Of a DNA stretch of 64,000 bases, positions 6,646 through 61,356 are shown in pieces; the stretch's first letter is position 1, and every line of letters starts with the position of its first letter. Under the pieces are notes generated by a model, which was given only the letters and a program-made list of their open reading frames with translations, searched no databases and was not told the DNA's origin. Position numbers and translations under genes: made by a program. The DNA comes from an uncultured SAR86 cluster bacterium (GTDB lineage: Bacteria > Pseudomonadota > Gammaproteobacteria > Magnimaribacterales > D2472): NCBI GenBank assembly GCA_902593675.1, contig CACJJI010000001.1:186001-250000 (forward strand), written 5' to 3'.

Positions 6646-7878
6646 TTAACCGCCAAAATCATCCAGCATGATATTTTCGGGCTCTACTCCAAGGTTAATA
6701 AGCATATCTATAACTGCTTTGTTCATCATGGGAGGTCCGCACATATAAAATTCACAATCTTCAGGAGCCTTATGAGATTTCAGATAACGATCAAAGAGAA
6801 CCTGATGTATAAAGCCTGTTAATCCGTCCCAGTCATCTTCAGGCTGAGGGTCTGATAATGCAACATGCCATTCAAAGTTTTTATTTGATTCGGCTAATTT
6901 ATTAAAATCATCAACATAAAACATCTCTTTCAAACTTCGAGCACCATACCAAAAGGAAATTTTTCTATCCGTATTAATTCTCAACAATTGATCAAATATA
7001 TGAGCTCTCATTGGAGCCATGCCTGCTCCACCTCCAACAAATACCATTTCAGCTGGTGATTTTTTGGCAAAGAACTCACCGAATGGTCCAAACACACGTA
7101 CTTTATCACCAGGCTTGAGATTAAATGTCCATGATGACATTACTCCAGGAGGTATATCAGATGATCCCGGTGGAGGGCTAGCAACTCTAATGTTAAACTT
7201 TAGAACTCCTTTTTCTTCAGGATAATTTGCCATTGAATATGCTCTTATTATTGGTTCTGAATTGTTCGCAACGTTATCCCATATTTTAAACTTATCCCAG
7301 TCTTCTCTATACTCATCAGCCACATCAAAAGATTTGTAATCAAGATTTGAGTATGCAGGAGCTTCAAGCTGCACATAACCCCCAGCTTTAAAATTAACTT
7401 CTTCACCCTCAGGCAGTTTTAAAACAAGCTCTTTGATGAAAGTTGCAACGTTATCATTAGAAACAACTTCACACTCCCATTCTTTAACACCAAAAACCTC
7501 TTCAGGAATGGTAATTTTAAGATCATTCTTTACTGCAACTTGACATGAGAGTCTCCAACCCTCTTTTTTTTCTTTAGAATTGAAGTGTGATTCTTCAGTT
7601 GGAAGAATAGATCCACCTCCTTCTGATATTTGGCACTTACACTGACTACAAGTGCCTCCACCACCACAGGCTGAAGAAAGAAAAATTTTATTTTCAGCAA
7701 GGGTTTGAAGTAGTTTATTGCCAGATGGAACCACGATTGGATTAGATGAATCACCATTAATCTCAATGGTTACATCACCTGAACTGACTAACTGGCTTCT
7801 TGCAGCGATAATTATAGTTACCAGGAGCAAAACTACGCCAGTAAATGAAAGAACACCTAAAAATAAATCAATTTGCAT
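6646..7878 (-). CDS. nqrF: Na+-translocating NADH:quinone reductase subunit F
   Basis: Entry subunit of Na+-NQR; oxidises NADH via FAD and passes electrons to a 2Fe-2S centre. A single N-terminal helix (about residues 5-26) is followed by a ferredoxin domain with cysteines at C71, C77, C80 and C112, almost the same numbering as in Vibrio cholerae. The FAD-binding motif [11 protein letters not shown], the [14 protein letters not shown] nucleotide motif and the C-terminal [14 protein letters not shown] segment identify the reductase half. It ends LDDFGG as usual. nqrE lies 9 bp upstream and apbE 8 bp downstream. Confidence 0.97.
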
Positions 7879-53672: not shown

Positions 53673-54269
53673 ATGACATTAGAGGAGTTAAGGGTAATAA
53701 CAATCGTATATGTTAGTGCCCTTGCCCCTCTAATTATTTATTTTTATAAAAAAAATAAAATCCCGCTATGGGTTCCATCAATATACTTAGGTTCTTTTCT
53801 TGTATGCGCATTAGGCTGGGAACTTTGGTTTACCTATGGGTGGGTTGATGGAGATCCGGTTAACTTACGAAGATCAGAAGCATTAAATCAATGGATTCCC
53901 ATTCATTTAAACTGGCTTTTGAACTCGATGGCAGATGCTGGGACAATTTCATTAGGTGGCTTATGGCTAATGTGGAAGTACAGTGGAAAAAGTAGTCAGG
54001 TTTTCCAACAATGGAGCTGGCCTGCATTTAGCATCTTATTTGTGTGGTGCATAGCACAAAATCTTTTTGTAGAACTATTTTTGTATCATGATCAATTATC
54101 TGAGGGCAAGCTTCTATCATGGGCGCCTCTATCTCCAACTGGTCAATTTTATAACCCGCTGCTATTTGAATTCAATCAGAGAAGCGTCATGCTTCAAACA
54201 CAATTACCTTGGTTGATTATGTCTCCAATCTTATACAAAGCAGCTATCATTCTGGCTAGAAAATCTTAA
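53673..54269 (+). CDS. Integral membrane protein of unknown family
   Basis: 198 residues with about five hydrophobic segments (near residues 8-24, 32-50, 80-100, 112-135 and 178-195). I do not recognise it. Tryptophan-rich motifs such as LGWELWFTYGWVDGD and WIPIHLNWLLNSMADAGT stand out, and the acidic loop between segments 2 and 3 is conserved-looking. It follows the DUF4177 gene by 4 bp. The 92-bp gap after it contains a short hairpin CCTAT/ATAGG near the next gene's start. Confidence 0.7.
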   Translation: MTLEELRVITIVYVSALAPLIIYFYKKNKIPLWVPSIYLGSFLVCALGWELWFTYGWVDGDPVNLRRSEALNQWIPIHLNWLLNSMADAGTISLGGLWLMWKYSGKSSQVFQQWSWPAFSILFVWCIAQNLFVELFLYHDQLSEGKLLSWAPLSPTGQFYNPLLFEFNQRSVMLQTQLPWLIMSPILYKAAIILARKS

Positions 54270-54361
54270 ATAATTTGGCCTAAACCTCTTTACTAAGTCG
54301 AGATATCAAATAGAAAATTTTACAATTAAAAAACCCTATCTAATAGGTGTATTATCAATAA

Positions 54362-55648
54362 ATGAGTACTGAGCAACACAGGGTGATTGGTTTTTGGCGC
54401 GGCTGGTCTATAGCTGTGGGGTGTGCAATAGGATCCGGGATTTTTATGATGCCAACCATGTTGGCTCCATATGGAATGCTTGGATTTGGTGGCTGGTTGA
54501 TAGCTGGGAGCGGATCAATCTTAGTCGCCTTAACAATGGCAAAACTGGTAAAAAGAATTCCTAAAACTGGAGGACCATATGTTTATGTAAATGAAGGGCT
54601 TGGTAAATTCTCAGGATTTATAATTGCTTGGACGTATTGGATTTCATGTATTTCAGCAATAGCCGGGATATCGATTGCATTTGTAGGTTATTTAGGTTTT
54701 TTTATTCCTACAATATCAAATTCACCCATTCATTCATTGCTAGCATCGCTTGTTCTTGTATGGGCTATTATTATTCTCAATATTAGAAGCTTAGAAAACA
54801 GTTCTAAATTCCAGCTAATCTCTACTCTATTAAAATTATTGCCTCTAATTTTTATTATTTTTCTTGGCACAGCAAACTTTAATTTTGATAATCTACCAGA
54901 ACTCAATCCAACCGATCTTCACCCAATCTCTTTGCTAGCAACAGTCACAACTCTTGTGATGTGGTCATTTATTGGCATTGAGACTGCTACTGTCCCGGCT
55001 GATAATGTAATCAATCCTCAGGAAACCATTCCAAAAGTTTTGATTGCATCGGTTTTAACAATTCTAATTATTTATATCTTGGTAAGCTTCTCAATAGCAG
55101 CAATTGTGCCAGCCAGCGAGTTAATTAACTCATCTGCTCCTTTTGCGCTAGCAGCAACAAAAATTCTAGGCGTAACTGGGGGAACACTCATAAGTATTGG
55201 GGCCTTAATATCTACGCTTGGTTCATTAAATGCAAATACGCTTACCGCTGGTAATCTAAGTCTTGCAGCAGCAAGAGATGGGCTGCTTCCAAGAAAGTTT
55301 GTTTCGTTAACTGAAACTGGAACTCCTATTTATACATATCTTCTTACAGGAGTATTTGTAAGCATTCTGCTGATATTGAATTATACCAAAGGCATTGTGA
55401 ATGCTTTTGTATTTATGGCGATGCTTTCAACGTTGTCTACATTAATTGCCTATGCATTCTGCGCAATAGCTGAATTTAAATTTGCACAAACTGATCAAAA
55501 AAATCAAGCTAGGATTAATGCTCTTTTGTTATCATGTGGAACGTTTTTATACGCATTTTTTGCTATTTGGGGGGCTGGAATTGAAATGATAATTTATTCA
55601 CTTATTTTAATTATATTTGGGACACCTATTTACTTACTTAAAAAATAA
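54362..55648 (+). CDS. APC-family amino acid permease
   Basis: Twelve-helix transporter, 428 residues. Helix 1 carries the unwound substrate motif GCAIGSGIFMMP, helix 3 region VKRIPKTGGPYVYVNEGLGKFSGFIIAWTYWIS, and helix 6 MWSFIGIETATVPADNVINPQETIPK; these are typical of the basic-amino-acid/antiporter branch of APC. An amine or amino acid is the substrate, with no finer call possible. First gene of a three-gene unit with the DDAH-like hydrolase and the Rieske oxygenase (1-bp gaps), closed by a strong terminator. Confidence 0.87.
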   Translation: MSTEQHRVIGFWRGWSIAVGCAIGSGIFMMPTMLAPYGMLGFGGWLIAGSGSILVALTMAKLVKRIPKTGGPYVYVNEGLGKFSGFIIAWTYWISCISAIAGISIAFVGYLGFFIPTISNSPIHSLLASLVLVWAIIILNIRSLENSSKFQLISTLLKLLPLIFIIFLGTANFNFDNLPELNPTDLHPISLLATVTTLVMWSFIGIETATVPADNVINPQETIPKVLIASVLTILIIYILVSFSIAAIVPASELINSSAPFALAATKILGVTGGTLISIGALISTLGSLNANTLTAGNLSLAAARDGLLPRKFVSLTETGTPIYTYLLTGVFVSILLILNYTKGIVNAFVFMAMLSTLSTLIAYAFCAIAEFKFAQTDQKNQARINALLLSCGTFLYAFFAIWGAGIEMIIYSLILIIFGTPIYLLKK

Positions 55649-55649
55649 T

Positions 55650-56519
55650 ATGAATGTATTAAATGAATTTTCTCAAATAAAAGATGTTGCCATAAGATCT
55701 CCTCTCTCTGGCTTCATTGATGATGAAAAGCTTTCAACTGAATGGGAGGCTCTAAGGTTTCATTCAAAGCCTGATTTAAATCAAGCAACAATCGAATACA
55801 ATTATTTTAGAGACTTGCTCCAAGATGACGGAATCAACATAATTGACTTGCCCTCCTCCAAACTATTAACCATTGATAGCATCTATACAAGAGACAGCAT
55901 TTTAATATCTAAAGAGGGTTTGATACTTTGTAATATGGGAAGAAGCTCTAGGACCCCTGAGGCAATGGAAAATTTTAATACGCTTACATCACAAGGTTAT
56001 GAAATAGCTGGTCAAATAGAAGCACCAGGAACTCTTGAGGGTGGTGATTTTATTTGGATTGATGATCATCATGCAGCAGTTGGGCATGGACCTAGAACTA
56101 ATGCAGAAGGAATTCGTCAATTAAAAGAAATATTAGGGTCTACGGTTGAACTGCATGTTGTAATGCTGCCAAAGCCAGAACACCCAGATGATGTTTTGCA
56201 CTTAATGTCAATCATTTCGCCGTTAGATAAAGATCTAGCTCTTATATATAAACCATTTATGCCAATTTCTTTTTTAAACTGGCTAAGTAATCTTGGCATA
56301 AAGTTTGTTGAGGTATCTGAGAGTGAGTACCCATTGATGGGATGTAATGTTTTGGCAACCTCACCAAGATCAATTATTATGCTTGAACAATTACCTGGTG
56401 TTCAATCTGATCTAGAAAGAGCTGGGTGTAAGATAAGAACTTATAAAGGAATTGAAATTAGTAGAAAAGGTGAAGGTGGACCCACTTGTTTAACAAGGCC
56501 CTTAAAAAGAATTGAATAA
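55650..56519 (+). CDS. Guanidino-group hydrolase of the DDAH/arginine deiminase fold
   Basis: The chosen start, ATG 55650, lies 2 bp after the permease stop (the track start at 55617 lies inside the permease); 289 residues. Catalytic triad by comparison with Pseudomonas DDAH: E130 in LEGGDF, H184 in DVLHLMS, C280 in GGPTCLTRPL. PRTNAEGIRQ matches that enzyme closely. SIYTRDSIL resembles the TRD loop of arginine deiminases instead of the DDAH FVED loop, so the substrate could be a methylarginine, arginine or another guanidino compound, with citrulline as a likely product. DDAH would release methylamines. Confidence 0.82.
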   Translation: MNVLNEFSQIKDVAIRSPLSGFIDDEKLSTEWEALRFHSKPDLNQATIEYNYFRDLLQDDGINIIDLPSSKLLTIDSIYTRDSILISKEGLILCNMGRSSRTPEAMENFNTLTSQGYEIAGQIEAPGTLEGGDFIWIDDHHAAVGHGPRTNAEGIRQLKEILGSTVELHVVMLPKPEHPDDVLHLMSIISPLDKDLALIYKPFMPISFLNWLSNLGIKFVEVSESEYPLMGCNVLATSPRSIIMLEQLPGVQSDLERAGCKIRTYKGIEISRKGEGGPTCLTRPLKRIE

Positions 56520-57680
56520 ATGACAAAAGTATTAAAAAGTCTTCCAGGCTGGACATATACAAGCGATGCATTTTTTGAGCTTGAGAAAAAAGAATTAATT
56601 CTAAAAAATTGGCAGCTGATTTGTCATATTTCAAATATTCCTAATTCTGGCGATTTTTTTACATTTGAAATTTTTAATGAGCGGATCTTTGTTATTAGAG
56701 ATGAAAAAGGAGATATCTCAGCATTTCAAAATTTTTGCTCTCATCGGGGTACAAAATTAATAGATGAAATTTCTGGAACCTGTAATGGCAAAATTACATG
56801 CCCTTATCATGCTTGGGGGTATGATTTTAAAGGCAATCTAATTAAAGTCCCGTATGAAGACCAATTCAAAGATTTTAATAAACAAAATCACGGGCTGCAA
56901 AAAGTTGATCTTGAAATCTTTCAAGGGTTTATTTTTGTTAAATTGCTAGATTCTGATGTGCCAAGTGTAAACGAGCAATTTAAACCATATATTGATGAGA
57001 TTGAACAATACAGGCTAGAAGAGATGCGCCCTTTGGGTCGTATAACAATGAGGCCAAGAAATGTTAATTGGAAACAAATTGCTGATAATTATGTTGATGC
57101 CCTACATATACCTGTCGCGCATCCTGGTCTATCAAATCTTGTAGGTAAAAGTTATGGAATTGAAGTCTCACCAAACAATGGATATATACATAAAATGTGG
57201 GGAGATGGAATAAATACCCGAAACAATAACCTATCTAATAGACTTTACGATAAATATTTACCTCATATGAATCATCTTCCAGATGATAAACAAAGGTATT
57301 GGCTTTATTATAGATTGTGGCCAAATCTTGCATTTGATATCTATCCAGAACAAATGGATTTTATGCAATTTATTCCAATTGATGCAAATACAACAATGAT
57401 TCGTGAAATTGCATATGCGCTTCCGGATGACCGACGTGAAACTAAAGCAGCTCAATACCTAAACTGGAGAATAAATAGGCAAGTGAATAATGAAGATACG
57501 CATTTAATCAATTTGGTTCAAGAAGGCATGAACACCAATAATTTTAAATCCGGTCCTCTTGCTTCATCTGAGGTTTGTTTGATTGATAGCGCGAATAAAG
57601 TCAGAGAGGCTATACCTTTAGCAAAAAAAGAAAATCAACCATCGGAAGCCGAAATTAATAAAAAAATTCTAAGTACCTAA
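56520..57680 (+). CDS. Rieske-type oxygenase, catalytic alpha subunit
   Basis: Mononuclear iron Rieske oxygenase, 386 residues. The 2Fe-2S ligands are C73/H75 in FCSHRG and C94/H97 in CPYHAW. The iron site is in DNYVDALHIPVAH (H196, H201, bridging D193). The hydroxylase domain follows to the C-terminus. Such enzymes either hydroxylate aromatics or demethylate/oxidise quaternary amines (GbcA, CntA, stachydrine types). ATG immediately follows the hydrolase stop. No ferredoxin reductase gene is nearby, so electrons must come from a partner elsewhere. Terminator directly downstream. Confidence 0.9.
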   Translation: MTKVLKSLPGWTYTSDAFFELEKKELILKNWQLICHISNIPNSGDFFTFEIFNERIFVIRDEKGDISAFQNFCSHRGTKLIDEISGTCNGKITCPYHAWGYDFKGNLIKVPYEDQFKDFNKQNHGLQKVDLEIFQGFIFVKLLDSDVPSVNEQFKPYIDEIEQYRLEEMRPLGRITMRPRNVNWKQIADNYVDALHIPVAHPGLSNLVGKSYGIEVSPNNGYIHKMWGDGINTRNNNLSNRLYDKYLPHMNHLPDDKQRYWLYYRLWPNLAFDIYPEQMDFMQFIPIDANTTMIREIAYALPDDRRETKAAQYLNWRINRQVNNEDTHLINLVQEGMNTNNFKSGPLASSEVCLIDSANKVREAIPLAKKENQPSEAEINKKILST

Positions 57681-57682
57681 CA

Positions 57683-57718
57683 AAAAAACGCAATACCATT
57701 TCTGATATTGCGTTTTTT
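57683..57718. terminator. Bidirectional rho-independent terminator
   Basis: A 13-bp perfect inverted repeat, AAAAAACGCAATA and TATTGCGTTTTTT, with a 10-nt loop. It has a T-run on either strand and lies between the Rieske oxygenase and the convergent TonB receptor, 3 bp and 11 bp from their stops. Confidence 0.93.
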
Positions 57719-57729
57719 AATTTTATTAT

Positions 57730-60357
57730 TTATCTACTTAATTTAAAACCAACATACACCATTCTACCTCGAGGATCATGATGTTTAGGATCATAGCTCC
57801 AGTTAGCAGCGTCATACACCAATGGAACCTCTTCATCAAATAGATTTGTTATACCCAATGAGAGTTTTAGCTCACTGTCATTCATTTCAAATGTATAAGT
57901 ATCCATCAGATCAACTGTAAAGAATGAATCAATCTTCTGAGTAAAGCCTCTAGATTTTGCTATAGAGTCTAAGGGTCTTGTTGTCTCATAGTCGGTTGTA
58001 TATCTTCCAAATAATGCCAATGAATTATTTCCAGATTCTAGGGCAGCATGAAATACAGCCTTGGTTTCTGGTAATGATCTTGCAAAATTATCATGATTGA
58101 ACTTTCCAACAACATCCACAGTGGATCCATTGAGAGGTATTTCATATTCAAACATGTGCATCATGTTTACACCTACCTGGGCTTGACCCCAACCAGTATC
58201 AAAATCATAGGTTGATTCAAAATCAATACCACTGGTATTAACATTTGCAGCGTTAAAGTATTTTGTTGTAACTCCAGTTAGAGTCCCATCAGATGTTCTT
58301 TTGACATCTGGATCATTTGGATTAGCAGCAACTTTTCCTTGAGCACTTTCAATTGTGATCACGTCTGTGTAGTCAATTGTCCAGTAGTCAAGTTTCATCG
58401 ACAGTTTATCTGTTGGATTCCACATTAAACCAATATTCATATTGTCTGATTCTTCTGGATTTAAGTTCGGATTATTTGCTTGAGCGATCCTGATGAAGGT
58501 GGTTCCACCTTTAGGTGTGCCGTCAGTATTAAAATCTTGAATACCCTGAAGGCCAATGGTGGTAGAAGTTAACTGGGCCAATGAAGCCTCTCTAAATGAG
58601 GTGCTAAATGAAGCTCTCATAGCAAGATTATCAGTTGCCTGATATCTGAATGATATCTTAGGATTAACTGAGCTATCAGTTTCAAGATCTTCGTATCTCA
58701 AAGCACCTTTAATCTCAAGCTTATCAGATGCGTCCATTGATCCCTCAACAAAAACAGCCATCGCATCACGACTGGCGTTACTCTCAAGACCGCCACCTAA
58801 AAATAGTAAATCAGCTGGCACTGTAATATTTCCATCTGCATCAAACTGTGCAATTGAAGATGCTCCACGTGCAACATTAAATGTTTCATCTCGATATTGG
58901 AAACCTGAAGCTATATCCATTCCGCCCCACTCTCCAGTTACAACAAAATCAAAAACAGCTAGCTCTGTTTCTGTCCAAGTTTGTTGAGCAGTAGATATCC
59001 ACTTAATTAAATCTGCAGAATTGTTTGTAGGTGTAAATAAATCCCAAGTTTCATTACCAGAATTGCCTCCATTACCTTTAATAGCAGCACTGAATCTAGA
59101 GGTGCTTGTATCAGGCTGTTGGCCATAGAAATCTTCACTACTTACAGTGTAATGAGCATCCCAATCAAAACCATTATCAAAATCTCCAGAAAGTCCAATT
59201 GAAAATCTATCTGTTTCAATTTCTCTTGGTGCATTTGGTGATGGGAAAGCAGATCCTAAAGCTCTTCCCAACCATAGAACAGGAACAGCAAACGGACTTC
59301 CACCTGTGCCTGGCATAATTGCATTAGCTGGACTTAAATAAGATAAAGCTGGGTAAGAAGGTGACTGAGGATTGTCATTTACATCAATCGCAGTGCTCAT
59401 GTAGTCAATTTCTAAAGCAGTTCCATTTCCAAGTAAGGTTTTGAATGATCCATACATGCTCTCATGATCTTCATCATTGACCACATTAAATCTAGGACCA
59501 TAAACAAAACCACATCTTGAACCACTAGCCTGAGGAATAAGAATTCCTTTATTAGCTACACAGTTAGGATCTGGAACGTTTTGAAATGGTGTATATGTTC
59601 CAGCATAAGGACCAGATTCAACTGTATCAGGACCAAATAGTAAAAAACTAGTGCCTAAACCGCTAATCCCAAGTTGGGCCAAACTTGGATCAAAATCTGC
59701 TCCAGACATTGGCGATCTATCAAGAATGCTTGCAGCTAAAACAAGATTAGTATTACCGTTTTCTGCTCCATAAATAAAACTAATTCTGTCATCGGTTTGA
59801 CCGCTGATGTCAGCTTCCTGGCTAGAAAGCTCAAGTTCCATACCAGTAAAATCTCTTCTAAAGATATAGTTCACAACTCCTGCCACAGCATCAGAGCCGT
59901 AAATAGATGCAGCTCCCTCTTTTAATACCTCTACTCTTTCTAACGCCACTACTGGAATTGCATTAGTATTTACAAAAGCACTTCCATCATTCGCAGTAGC
60001 ACCTGTAAGAGTATGTCTGCGTCCATCTACTAAGATTAAAGTTGATGAAAGACCCAAACCTCTTAAATTCACATTGGATGTACCCTGAGTTGCACCCTGA
60101 GTGAATGAATCAGAATTATTTTCTGATCCAGAATTGACCGATAAGTTTCTAGTAATATCAGCAATTGAAGTAGCTCCAATATCCTCAATTGTCTCCCTAT
60201 CAATGACCTCTACCGGAGAAGCTCCATCAGTAGGACTACCCTTAATATAAGAACCAGTCACCATGACTTCTTCTATATCATCTTGCCCAAAAGCTTCTAG
60301 TGTTAAAAAAGATGTGCACAAAAATGCAACAAACCATCTAGATTTATAAGTATTCAT
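57730..60357 (-). CDS. TonB-dependent outer membrane receptor
   Basis: 875 residues. Signal peptide (MNTYKSRWFVAFLCTSFLTLEAFG), then DDIEEVMVTGSYIKG, a TonB-box-like start, the plug domain (VEVIDRETIEDIGATSIADITRNL to NLRGLGLSSTLILVDGRRHTLTG) and a long beta-barrel ending FDEEVPLVYDAANWSYDPKHHDPRGRMVYVGFKLSR. Family includes transporters for siderophores, cobalamin and glycans; this one with long barrel loops and no iron-specific motif is of the TonB_C/SusC-unlike kind common in marine gammaproteobacteria. Convergent with the Rieske unit. Confidence 0.93.
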   Translation of the reverse strand: MNTYKSRWFVAFLCTSFLTLEAFGQDDIEEVMVTGSYIKGSPTDGASPVEVIDRETIEDIGATSIADITRNLSVNSGSENNSDSFTQGATQGTSNVNLRGLGLSSTLILVDGRRHTLTGATANDGSAFVNTNAIPVVALERVEVLKEGAASIYGSDAVAGVVNYIFRRDFTGMELELSSQEADISGQTDDRISFIYGAENGNTNLVLAASILDRSPMSGADFDPSLAQLGISGLGTSFLLFGPDTVESGPYAGTYTPFQNVPDPNCVANKGILIPQASGSRCGFVYGPRFNVVNDEDHESMYGSFKTLLGNGTALEIDYMSTAIDVNDNPQSPSYPALSYLSPANAIMPGTGGSPFAVPVLWLGRALGSAFPSPNAPREIETDRFSIGLSGDFDNGFDWDAHYTVSSEDFYGQQPDTSTSRFSAAIKGNGGNSGNETWDLFTPTNNSADLIKWISTAQQTWTETELAVFDFVVTGEWGGMDIASGFQYRDETFNVARGASSIAQFDADGNITVPADLLFLGGGLESNASRDAMAVFVEGSMDASDKLEIKGALRYEDLETDSSVNPKISFRYQATDNLAMRASFSTSFREASLAQLTSTTIGLQGIQDFNTDGTPKGGTTFIRIAQANNPNLNPEESDNMNIGLMWNPTDKLSMKLDYWTIDYTDVITIESAQGKVAANPNDPDVKRTSDGTLTGVTTKYFNAANVNTSGIDFESTYDFDTGWGQAQVGVNMMHMFEYEIPLNGSTVDVVGKFNHDNFARSLPETKAVFHAALESGNNSLALFGRYTTDYETTRPLDSIAKSRGFTQKIDSFFTVDLMDTYTFEMNDSELKLSLGITNLFDEEVPLVYDAANWSYDPKHHDPRGRMVYVGFKLSR

Positions 60358-60476: not shown

Positions 60477-60839
60477 TTATTTTGGAGTTTGGCCAGTTCC
60501 TGGGTGCACTATTTCAGTTGGCGGGCTTGCAGGTGAATCAGCTGTAATTGAGTTAGACATGGAAGAACCCATGATGTAATTTTTGAAATCTAAAATTTCT
60601 TTTGCAATTAATCTACAGTTCAGATCTCTTTTTAAAGCCTCTTCTAACAATAAATTAAAATACTTATCTGAGACAGATTGTTGTTTGTATATCATGCTGT
60701 AACAAAGGCTAGGATCTGACTTTAAATCGATTTTGGTTTGAAGTTGAGTGCTTGAACAGCCAACCAGCACGCAGATTAAGATGAGATTAAAATATTGAAT
60801 AATGCTATCTGTGAAGTTAGATGGTATGAGGAGCTGCAA
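60477..60839 (-). CDS. Hypothetical lipoprotein
   Basis: 120 residues with a hydrophobic stretch ending in a lipobox, NLILICVLVGCSS, so probably a lipoprotein with the lipidated cysteine near residue 28. The N-terminal extension before it is long for a signal; the first 15 residues overlap the HD gene and may not be translated, although no closer ATG exists. The C-terminus is proline-rich (SPASPPTEIVHPGTGQTPK). I recognise no family. Confidence 0.55.
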   Translation of the reverse strand: MQLLIPSNFTDSIIQYFNLILICVLVGCSSTQLQTKIDLKSDPSLCYSMIYKQQSVSDKYFNLLLEEALKRDLNCRLIAKEILDFKNYIMGSSMSNSITADSPASPPTEIVHPGTGQTPK

Positions 60840-61356
60840 AAAATTTATTAATTAAAGGCTCAAATGATTCTAAGGCATCAGTATCGTACTCTGGATCAAA
60901 AGCTGCTTGATCCCACTCATCAGTAAATTCAGTTGCTTTGGCATACCAAGACTCGTTTTCATATTGTTTACGTAAATCTTGAGGTTTACCCATGTAGTGA
61001 TAGTAATGTTCGCCCTGAAAATCCTGATGCGTGCGAATAATATGATATGCATCATCGCTAACATAAGGTTTAATCATTTCAGCTGCAATTTGGCCGTGAT
61101 TTGGTACGTTAATAACTTTACCAATATCATGTATGAGGCTAATAAGTACCATTTCTTCGTCAGCTCCCGCCCTTCTAGCCATCGTTGCTGTCTGCAATGC
61201 ATGATGAAGTTGATCTGTTCCAAAGCCAAGCGTTAGATCTTTTAACTGTTTTAACATTGATATGATTCTTTTTGGCATATCAAAAATATGCGGCATATGT
61301 TCTTCGCTAATATGCTGCCATTCTTCTTCGGTGCTATGATCCATTCTTGTAAACAT
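60817..61356 (-). CDS. HD-domain protein of the mixed-valent di-iron oxygenase type (PhnZ/MIOX-like)
   Basis: 179 residues. All six ligands of PhnZ and MIOX can be laid out: H52, H76-D77 in LIHDIGKV, H87 in NHGQIAAEMI, H110 in IIRTHQDF, and D149 in TDEWDQAAFDP. H52 to H76 has the PhnZ spacing (24), H87 to H110 is 23 where PhnZ has 24, and the final W-D motif matches LRRWDD-like sequences. Plain HD phosphohydrolases lack that last Asp. It could therefore be an oxygenase cleaving C-C or C-P bonds, with unknown substrate; no phosphonate genes are near. A start at M5 is an alternative. Confidence 0.75.
   Translation of the reverse strand: MFTRMDHSTEEEWQHISEEHMPHIFDMPKRIISMLKQLKDLTLGFGTDQLHHALQTATMARRAGADEEMVLISLIHDIGKVINVPNHGQIAAEMIKPYVSDDAYHIIRTHQDFQGEHYYHYMGKPQDLRKQYENESWYAKATEFTDEWDQAAFDPEYDTDALESFEPLINKFFAAPHTI

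Follow-up and report, generated by a model that had tools for sequence, protein, structure and literature searches.

Why should an amino acid permease, a guanidino-group hydrolase and a Rieske oxygenase be encoded end to end, and do the three act on one substrate? The question is raised by positions 54362-57718 of a 64,000-nucleotide stretch of DNA (the window; positions 186,001 to 250,000 of contig CACJJI010000001.1) from a 1.5 Mb, 81% complete genome of SAR86, an abundant, largely uncultured surface-ocean lineage. The original prediction, made from the sequence of the window, held that these genes form one closed unit for methylated or guanidino amines. We find that the unit is real and conserved, and it is apparently so far undescribed. 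Tentatively, we favor the view that this short operon breaks down an arginine-type amino acid whose guanidino group is substituted, and most likely N-methylated. Its parts fall within known superfamilies, yet outside the nearest named families.

Results

The coordinates, order and strand that had been given for the three genes are correct, and Pfam and NCBIfam agree with the assigned families. All three lie on the forward strand. A 428-aa permease of the amino acid-polyamine-organocation (APC) superfamily (54362-55648; PF13520, TIGR00905-like, with AdiC as its nearest solved relative) has its stop codon at 55646-55648. After a gap of 1 bp, the ATG at 55650 opens the gene for a 289-aa guanidino-group-modifying hydrolase (55650-56519; PF02274, PF19420) with the fold of arginine deiminase (ADI) and dimethylarginine dimethylaminohydrolase (DDAH, or dimethylargininase). 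The stop codon of this gene (56517-56519) is followed, with a gap of 0 bp, by the ATG (56520) of a Rieske [2Fe-2S] oxygenase, a single alpha-type subunit of 386 aa (56520-57680; PF00355 plus the ring-hydroxylase C-terminus, PF00848). A TTG at 55617, the hydrolase start in the list of open reading frames (ORFs), was rejected, since it merely reflects the rule of taking the longest ORF.

The original prediction would be undermined if the genes were unlinked in close relatives; they are linked in 16 of 16 SAR86 genomes. Among 107 SAR86-family genomes searched, the hydrolase is present in 16, all belonging to the window's genus (26 genomes); the named relatives whose hydrolase is 68-95% identical to that of the window are SAR86 cluster bacteria. 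The permease occurs in the same 16, and a close Rieske gene comes next on the same contig in every one, so that each genome of the genus with any block-type gene carries all three in unchanged order. The spacing is equally tight throughout (-4 to +7 bp between permease and hydrolase, -4 to +3 bp between hydrolase and Rieske gene). The three-gene linkage in SAR86 is beyond chance.

The same order recurs outside SAR86. No further close hydrolase was found in a wider sample of 369 Gammaproteobacteria; a sample of the phylum yielded one, in an alphaproteobacterial genome (G781) with the identical three-gene order and identities of 46, 58 and 60% to the window proteins. Within the order to which G781 belongs, a close hydrolase is encoded in 10 of 251 genomes, each time with the permease gene before it; six of these ten pairs are followed by the Rieske gene, one of the six being cut by a contig end. 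The permease-hydrolase pairing is well supported. In the wider class there are hydrolases 42-55% identical to the window protein that occur without this permease or Rieske oxygenase.

Both the hydrolase and the Rieske trees contain long branches, and the details of branching are uncertain. In the former, SAR86 is nested among alphaproteobacteria, nearest G781 and G875. In the latter, the SAR86 block Rieske proteins group with Rieske proteins of SAR86 genomes that lack the block. A single clade for all block Rieske proteins was rejected (log-likelihood difference 59.7; approximately unbiased (AU) test, p 1e-7), which for the Rieske gene rules out a block inherited whole from one ancestor without loss. 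It follows that this gene order came together on two or more occasions or that the block was lost repeatedly, and either history favors a functional link.

Is the hydrolase an ADI or a DDAH? Its predicted structure (AlphaFold2 model; predicted local distance difference test (pLDDT) score 94.5) matches both in Foldseek, with an ADI at the top E-value, and the best match in a profile search of the PDB is a DDAH (3rhy, 7e-25). It has the fold, Cys nucleophile, His base and Glu of the guanidino-group-modifying enzyme (GME) superfamily. The predicted Glu-His-Cys triad is complete (E130/H184/C280) and invariant in 25 close homologues and three outgroups, as are D76, D82, R101, R149, N233 and M186. 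Alignment to DDAH and the residue roles known for ADI and DDAH (PMC11659421) predict that D76 binds the amine of the substrate, D82 its guanidino group and R101/R149 its carboxylate, with a structural role for N233. The expected ligand is thus an L-alpha-amino acid whose side chain is guanidino-like. The position two residues after the catalytic His is Asp in ADIs and Lys in DDAHs, where the Lys makes room for the methylated amine (PMC11659421); here it is always Met (M186), which would give an uncharged leaving-group pocket. The protein also scores far below the curated cutoffs for dimethylargininase (NF045660, 81.7 vs 340 bits; NF045658, 59.8 vs 450) and ADI (TIGR01078, 55 vs 489). These scores and the residue after the His rule out assignment as a DDAH or an ADI; together with the invariance of Met186 they point to a distinct GME subfamily that is neither.

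Pseudomonas aeruginosa DDAH (1H70/3RHY) has the same single-domain GME fold and triad, amine- and guanidino-binding Asp residues and two carboxylate-binding Arg residues, but identity over the fold is 26%, its leaving-group Lys is replaced by Met, the motif around the guanidino Asp is TRD rather than VED, and our hydrolase is linked to a Rieske gene. The ADI ArcA has the triad, the TRD motif and the substrate-holding residues in common with the hydrolase, which differs in lacking the extra helical domain (289 aa vs about 410 aa), the leaving-group Asp and an adjoining arcB/arcC partner. The N-terminal domain of the cyanobacterial arginine dihydrolase ArgZ/AgrE and the 2-nitroimidazole nitrohydrolase NnhA also have the GME fold and are picked up in profile and structure comparisons, with weak sequence similarity. 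Unlike NnhA, the hydrolase keeps the arginine-holding residues, and it lacks NnhA's Asp after the His.

Independent support for an arginine-type substrate comes from one gene run (L176), in which a 42% identical hydrolase homologue is followed by arginase (TIGR01229) and ornithine aminotransferase (TIGR01885), both over cutoff, and which also holds a Lys/Arg/Orn-type ATP-binding cassette (ABC) transporter. With arginase alongside, a plain ADI would be redundant there. These neighbors and the conserved substrate-holding residues support the earlier suggestion that the hydrolase acts on a guanidino amino acid, here one of arginine type. The L176 lineage is culturable and a good target for a first hydrolase assay. 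At three loci of one genus (L085, L174, L175), a hydrolase homologue adjoins formate-tetrahydrofolate ligase and an ABC transporter with a periplasmic binding protein; the ligase hints at one-carbon metabolism, a hint on which we place little weight.

The permease likely transports an amino acid. Its best solved relative, the arginine/agmatine antiporter AdiC (8.9e-53), has backbone-site residues in common with it (S26, G27 and W202 of the alpha-amino/carboxylate site are kept). It scores below the cutoff for AdiC-type antiporters (NF007929, 224 vs 574 bits), has no decarboxylase partner and differs from AdiC at the side-chain contacts Asn101 and Trp293, so the two are not likely to have the same specificity. 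In permeases next to Rieske genes without the pair, the Trp is mostly retained.

The Rieske oxygenase has the CxH...CxxH cluster ligands and 2-His-1-Asp iron site of its superfamily (C73, H75, C94, H97, H196, H201 and D326, all invariant). CntA is the best match both in sequence (3.9e-36) and in fold, followed in fold by stachydrine demethylase (Stc2); its AlphaFold2 model is weaker than that of the hydrolase (pLDDT 84), and two stretches close to the metal sites, 77-86 and 195-199, are of low confidence. As in these group V enzymes, there is a single oxygenase gene without a beta-subunit gene and a 2-His-1-Asp site, and the aromatic Tyr191 stands at the position of CntA Tyr203. The differences are considerable: 22-24% identity to CntA in structural alignment, no adjoining reductase gene, and a changed active site. 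Quaternary-amine Rieske enzymes have a bridging Glu and, in some members, a Cys pair beside the mononuclear iron (PMC10952381, PMC7948474), and the E205D variant of CntA is inactive (PMC7948474). The bridging residue here is Asp193 in all homologues examined, as opposed to Glu205 in CntA, and Ala194 and Ile197 occupy the positions of CntA Cys206/Cys209, so that there is no Cys-x-x-Cys pair. A betaine or carnitine enzyme is ruled out on these two grounds; the match to glycine betaine monooxygenase GbcA (NF058607) is confined to the N-terminal half and reaches 129.8 vs 670 bits. Betaines, which had been put forward as substrates to assay, have no specific support.

Rieske homologues outside the block keep characteristic company. 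Their loci repeatedly hold a CrtO-like oxidoreductase dependent on flavin adenine dinucleotide (FAD), an APC permease and a TonB-dependent receptor, as well as Xaa-Pro dipeptidase (NF051886), M20 peptidase and gamma-glutamyltransferase, and such peptidase-rich neighborhoods point to a substrate among amino acids freed from peptides. One run (L104) joins both contexts, with the hydrolase-permease pair, a TetR regulator, the FAD enzyme, a distant (35%) Rieske gene and Xaa-Pro dipeptidase; one block locus (L084) also has Xaa-Pro dipeptidase and an M24 peptidase. At L142, L145 and L158, genes for glutathione-dependent formaldehyde dehydrogenase (AdhC) and/or S-formylglutathione hydrolase (FghA) lie near Rieske homologues, which would fit the release of a methyl group as formaldehyde. 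The N-demethylation that had been proposed for the Rieske oxygenase is suggested by these neighbors and by its CntA/Stc2 relatives.

Several of these neighborhoods deserve mention in their own right. In L146-L158 (Sphingomonadales-type) and L066, the order is tetratricopeptide repeat protein, TonB receptor, APC permease, Rieske oxygenase, CrtO-like FAD oxidoreductase, Xaa-Pro dipeptidase and M20 peptidase, which looks like a peptide/amino-acid scavenging system that includes a Rieske step. At two loci of SAR86 genus g3 (L052, L055), a flavin monooxygenase-like gene comes immediately after a Rieske homologue (65-68% identity) and is 81% identical from one locus to the other: a different partnership within the same Rieske lineage. 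SAR86 AdhC adjoins a formate dehydrogenase dependent on nicotinamide adenine dinucleotide in the four loci read (L160-L163, from genomes G032, G019, G033 and G035), together with a 71-aa ORF, a gamma-butyrobetaine/trimethylaminoethylphosphonate dioxygenase-like protein and an HD protein. This is a possible SAR86 module from methylated amines to CO2.

The strong terminator placed at the end of the unit was borne out. A Rho-independent-terminator-like hairpin at 57683-57718 (forward strand; -14 kcal/mol, z -5.5; none of 200 shuffles equally stable) is flanked by an A-run 5' and a T-run 3' and sits between convergent genes, features that suggest it probably serves the unit and the TonB receptor gene alike. 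A consensus terminator scan did not pick up this hairpin because its pattern is narrow. A candidate sigma-70 promoter at 54298-54355 was set aside; promoter-like matches were not above shuffles (21 vs 17.6), so we claim no promoter for the unit.

Neither neighbor belongs to the unit. Upstream, a 198-aa membrane protein without a Pfam or NCBIfam match (53673-54269, forward strand) adjoins the permease in most SAR86 loci and is absent in G035 (L058) and G036 (L056); it was excluded as its presence is not constant. Downstream, the convergent TonB-dependent receptor (57730-60357, reverse strand; PF07715, PF00593) is found at this place in L048 and L058 and was excluded as it is missing there in several SAR86 genomes (L047, L049, L050, L051). 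With both flanks variable, the conserved element is the block and not its neighborhood. In three SAR86 loci without the receptor at this place (L049, L050, L057), a 340-aa cysteine-synthase-like gene of the pyridoxal-phosphate type lies 3' of the Rieske gene on the same strand. A stable downstream neighbor in SAR86 is the HD-domain protein at 60817-61356 of the window; weakly like myo-inositol oxygenase (PF05153), it could be an HD-type oxygenase.

Discussion

How might the three proteins work together? The permease would import a free amino acid. The hydrolase would cut the guanidino group by way of a cysteine-thiouronium intermediate, a chemistry strongly implied by its active-site residues, giving a citrulline-type product and ammonia or an amine. 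The Rieske oxygenase, with electrons from a reductase encoded elsewhere, would strip methyl groups as formaldehyde from the same substrate or a related one. Ammonia, an amine or formaldehyde are the predicted products, and since argG is present, as in most of these genomes, citrulline could be used. Methylation of the guanidino group, demethylation as the Rieske reaction, a single compound for all three proteins and any particular order of the steps are inferred. The earlier idea of one shared molecule is stronger for the permease and hydrolase than for the Rieske oxygenase, since the pair can be found without a Rieske gene and Rieske genes are widespread without the pair.

A number of our observations weigh against a methylated arginine-type substrate shared by all three proteins: (i) four of the ten alphaproteobacterial permease-hydrolase pairs have no adjacent Rieske gene, and SAR86 of genera g3 and g5 carry the Rieske gene without the pair; (ii) of the 251 genomes in the G781 order, 64 carry a Rieske homologue and most of these lack the hydrolase, and the neighbors of such Rieske-only loci are the CrtO-like FAD enzyme and peptidases, not arginine genes; (iii) among 20 Rieske-only loci, just three have formaldehyde genes nearby, and two of the three come from the same family; (iv) in SAR86, 6 of the 16 genomes with the block and none of the 10 without the block have full-length AdhC, a weak association (p 0.053) among incomplete and related genomes that we do not take as proof of demethylation; (v) in all SAR86 block permeases Ile replaces AdiC N101 and Asn replaces W293, which we take to be the side-chain (guanidinium) contacts; and (vi) no dedicated reductase was found in the unit or in the 81% complete genome, other types of electron donor lying outside the search. 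The sole FAD_binding_6 (PF00970) match in the genome, the window ORF at 6646-7878, was rejected as a partner for the Rieske oxygenase, being NqrF by its neighbors and domain order.

Some of these points suit other explanations. The permease and hydrolase may be an arginine-type scavenging pair while the Rieske oxygenase hydroxylates a C-H bond, not a methyl group, of their amino acid substrate or of an amino acid further downstream, with no demethylation involved. The bridging Asp in place of Glu, the missing Cys pair of the quaternary-amine enzymes (PMC10952381, PMC7948474) and the ability of the pair to do without a Rieske gene fit this, but the closest folds, CntA and Stc2, cleave C-N bonds and formaldehyde genes adjoin three of the Rieske homologues; we think it unlikely. 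We are similarly doubtful that the Rieske oxygenase has its place in another pathway, related to peptides or proline, and is merely co-transcribed, the gene order reflecting a shared regulon for peptide-derived amino acids. The recurrence of Xaa-Pro dipeptidase, M20 peptidase, gamma-glutamyltransferase and TonB receptor at Rieske-only loci, the peptidases at block locus L084 and the close fold of stachydrine (proline betaine) demethylase would all be accounted for; against this, the three-gene adjacency is common to two bacterial classes whose Rieske proteins do not form one clade.

Two further scenarios seem to us less probable still. If the hydrolase were a dimethylargininase that releases methylamine or dimethylamine, the Rieske oxygenase might oxidise the released amine, and the best NCBIfam match and the best PDB profile match of the hydrolase do lie with this enzyme. 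Its score is far under the cutoff (82 vs 340 bits), however, the DDAH Lys is replaced by Met and, to our knowledge, none of the known dimethylamine monooxygenases is a Rieske enzyme, which makes this quite improbable. We consider it very improbable that the unit is biosynthetic, making a modified guanidino metabolite that the permease exports or exchanges. Some guanidino natural-product pathways do employ Rieske and GME-fold enzymes, and the saxitoxin Rieske enzyme SxtT and amidinotransferase SxtG are among the weaker matches. Nearby biosynthetic, activating or resistance genes are absent, however, and homologues keep catabolic company: arginase, ornithine aminotransferase, uptake systems and peptidases.

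Returning to a catabolic operon for a substituted arginine, a more specific version can be imagined, although we regard it as unlikely in all its particulars. Free monomethylarginine, asymmetric dimethylarginine and symmetric dimethylarginine (SDMA), derived from eukaryotic and bacterial proteins in seawater, would be scavenged by a new route in which the Rieske oxygenase takes N-methyl groups off the guanidino group, or off some related methylated amino acid, before this third type of hydrolase yields citrulline. We know of no DDAH that accepts SDMA as a substrate; if the route were true, SDMA would become usable. Our literature search, with subscription papers and preprints mostly outside its coverage, found nothing relevant on a Rieske/dimethylargininase operon, on SAR86 with Rieske enzymes or arginine, or on methylarginine demethylation.

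The unit proteins, soluble or membrane-bound, are of ordinary kinds and lend themselves to assay in E. coli. A function of the kind favored here would explain a GME subfamily that fits neither ADI nor dimethylargininase, and would suggest a second side-branch of amine-acting Rieske enzymes. The nitrogen and one-carbon substrates of SAR86 are poorly known, and a unit for modified arginine would name a concrete class of them.

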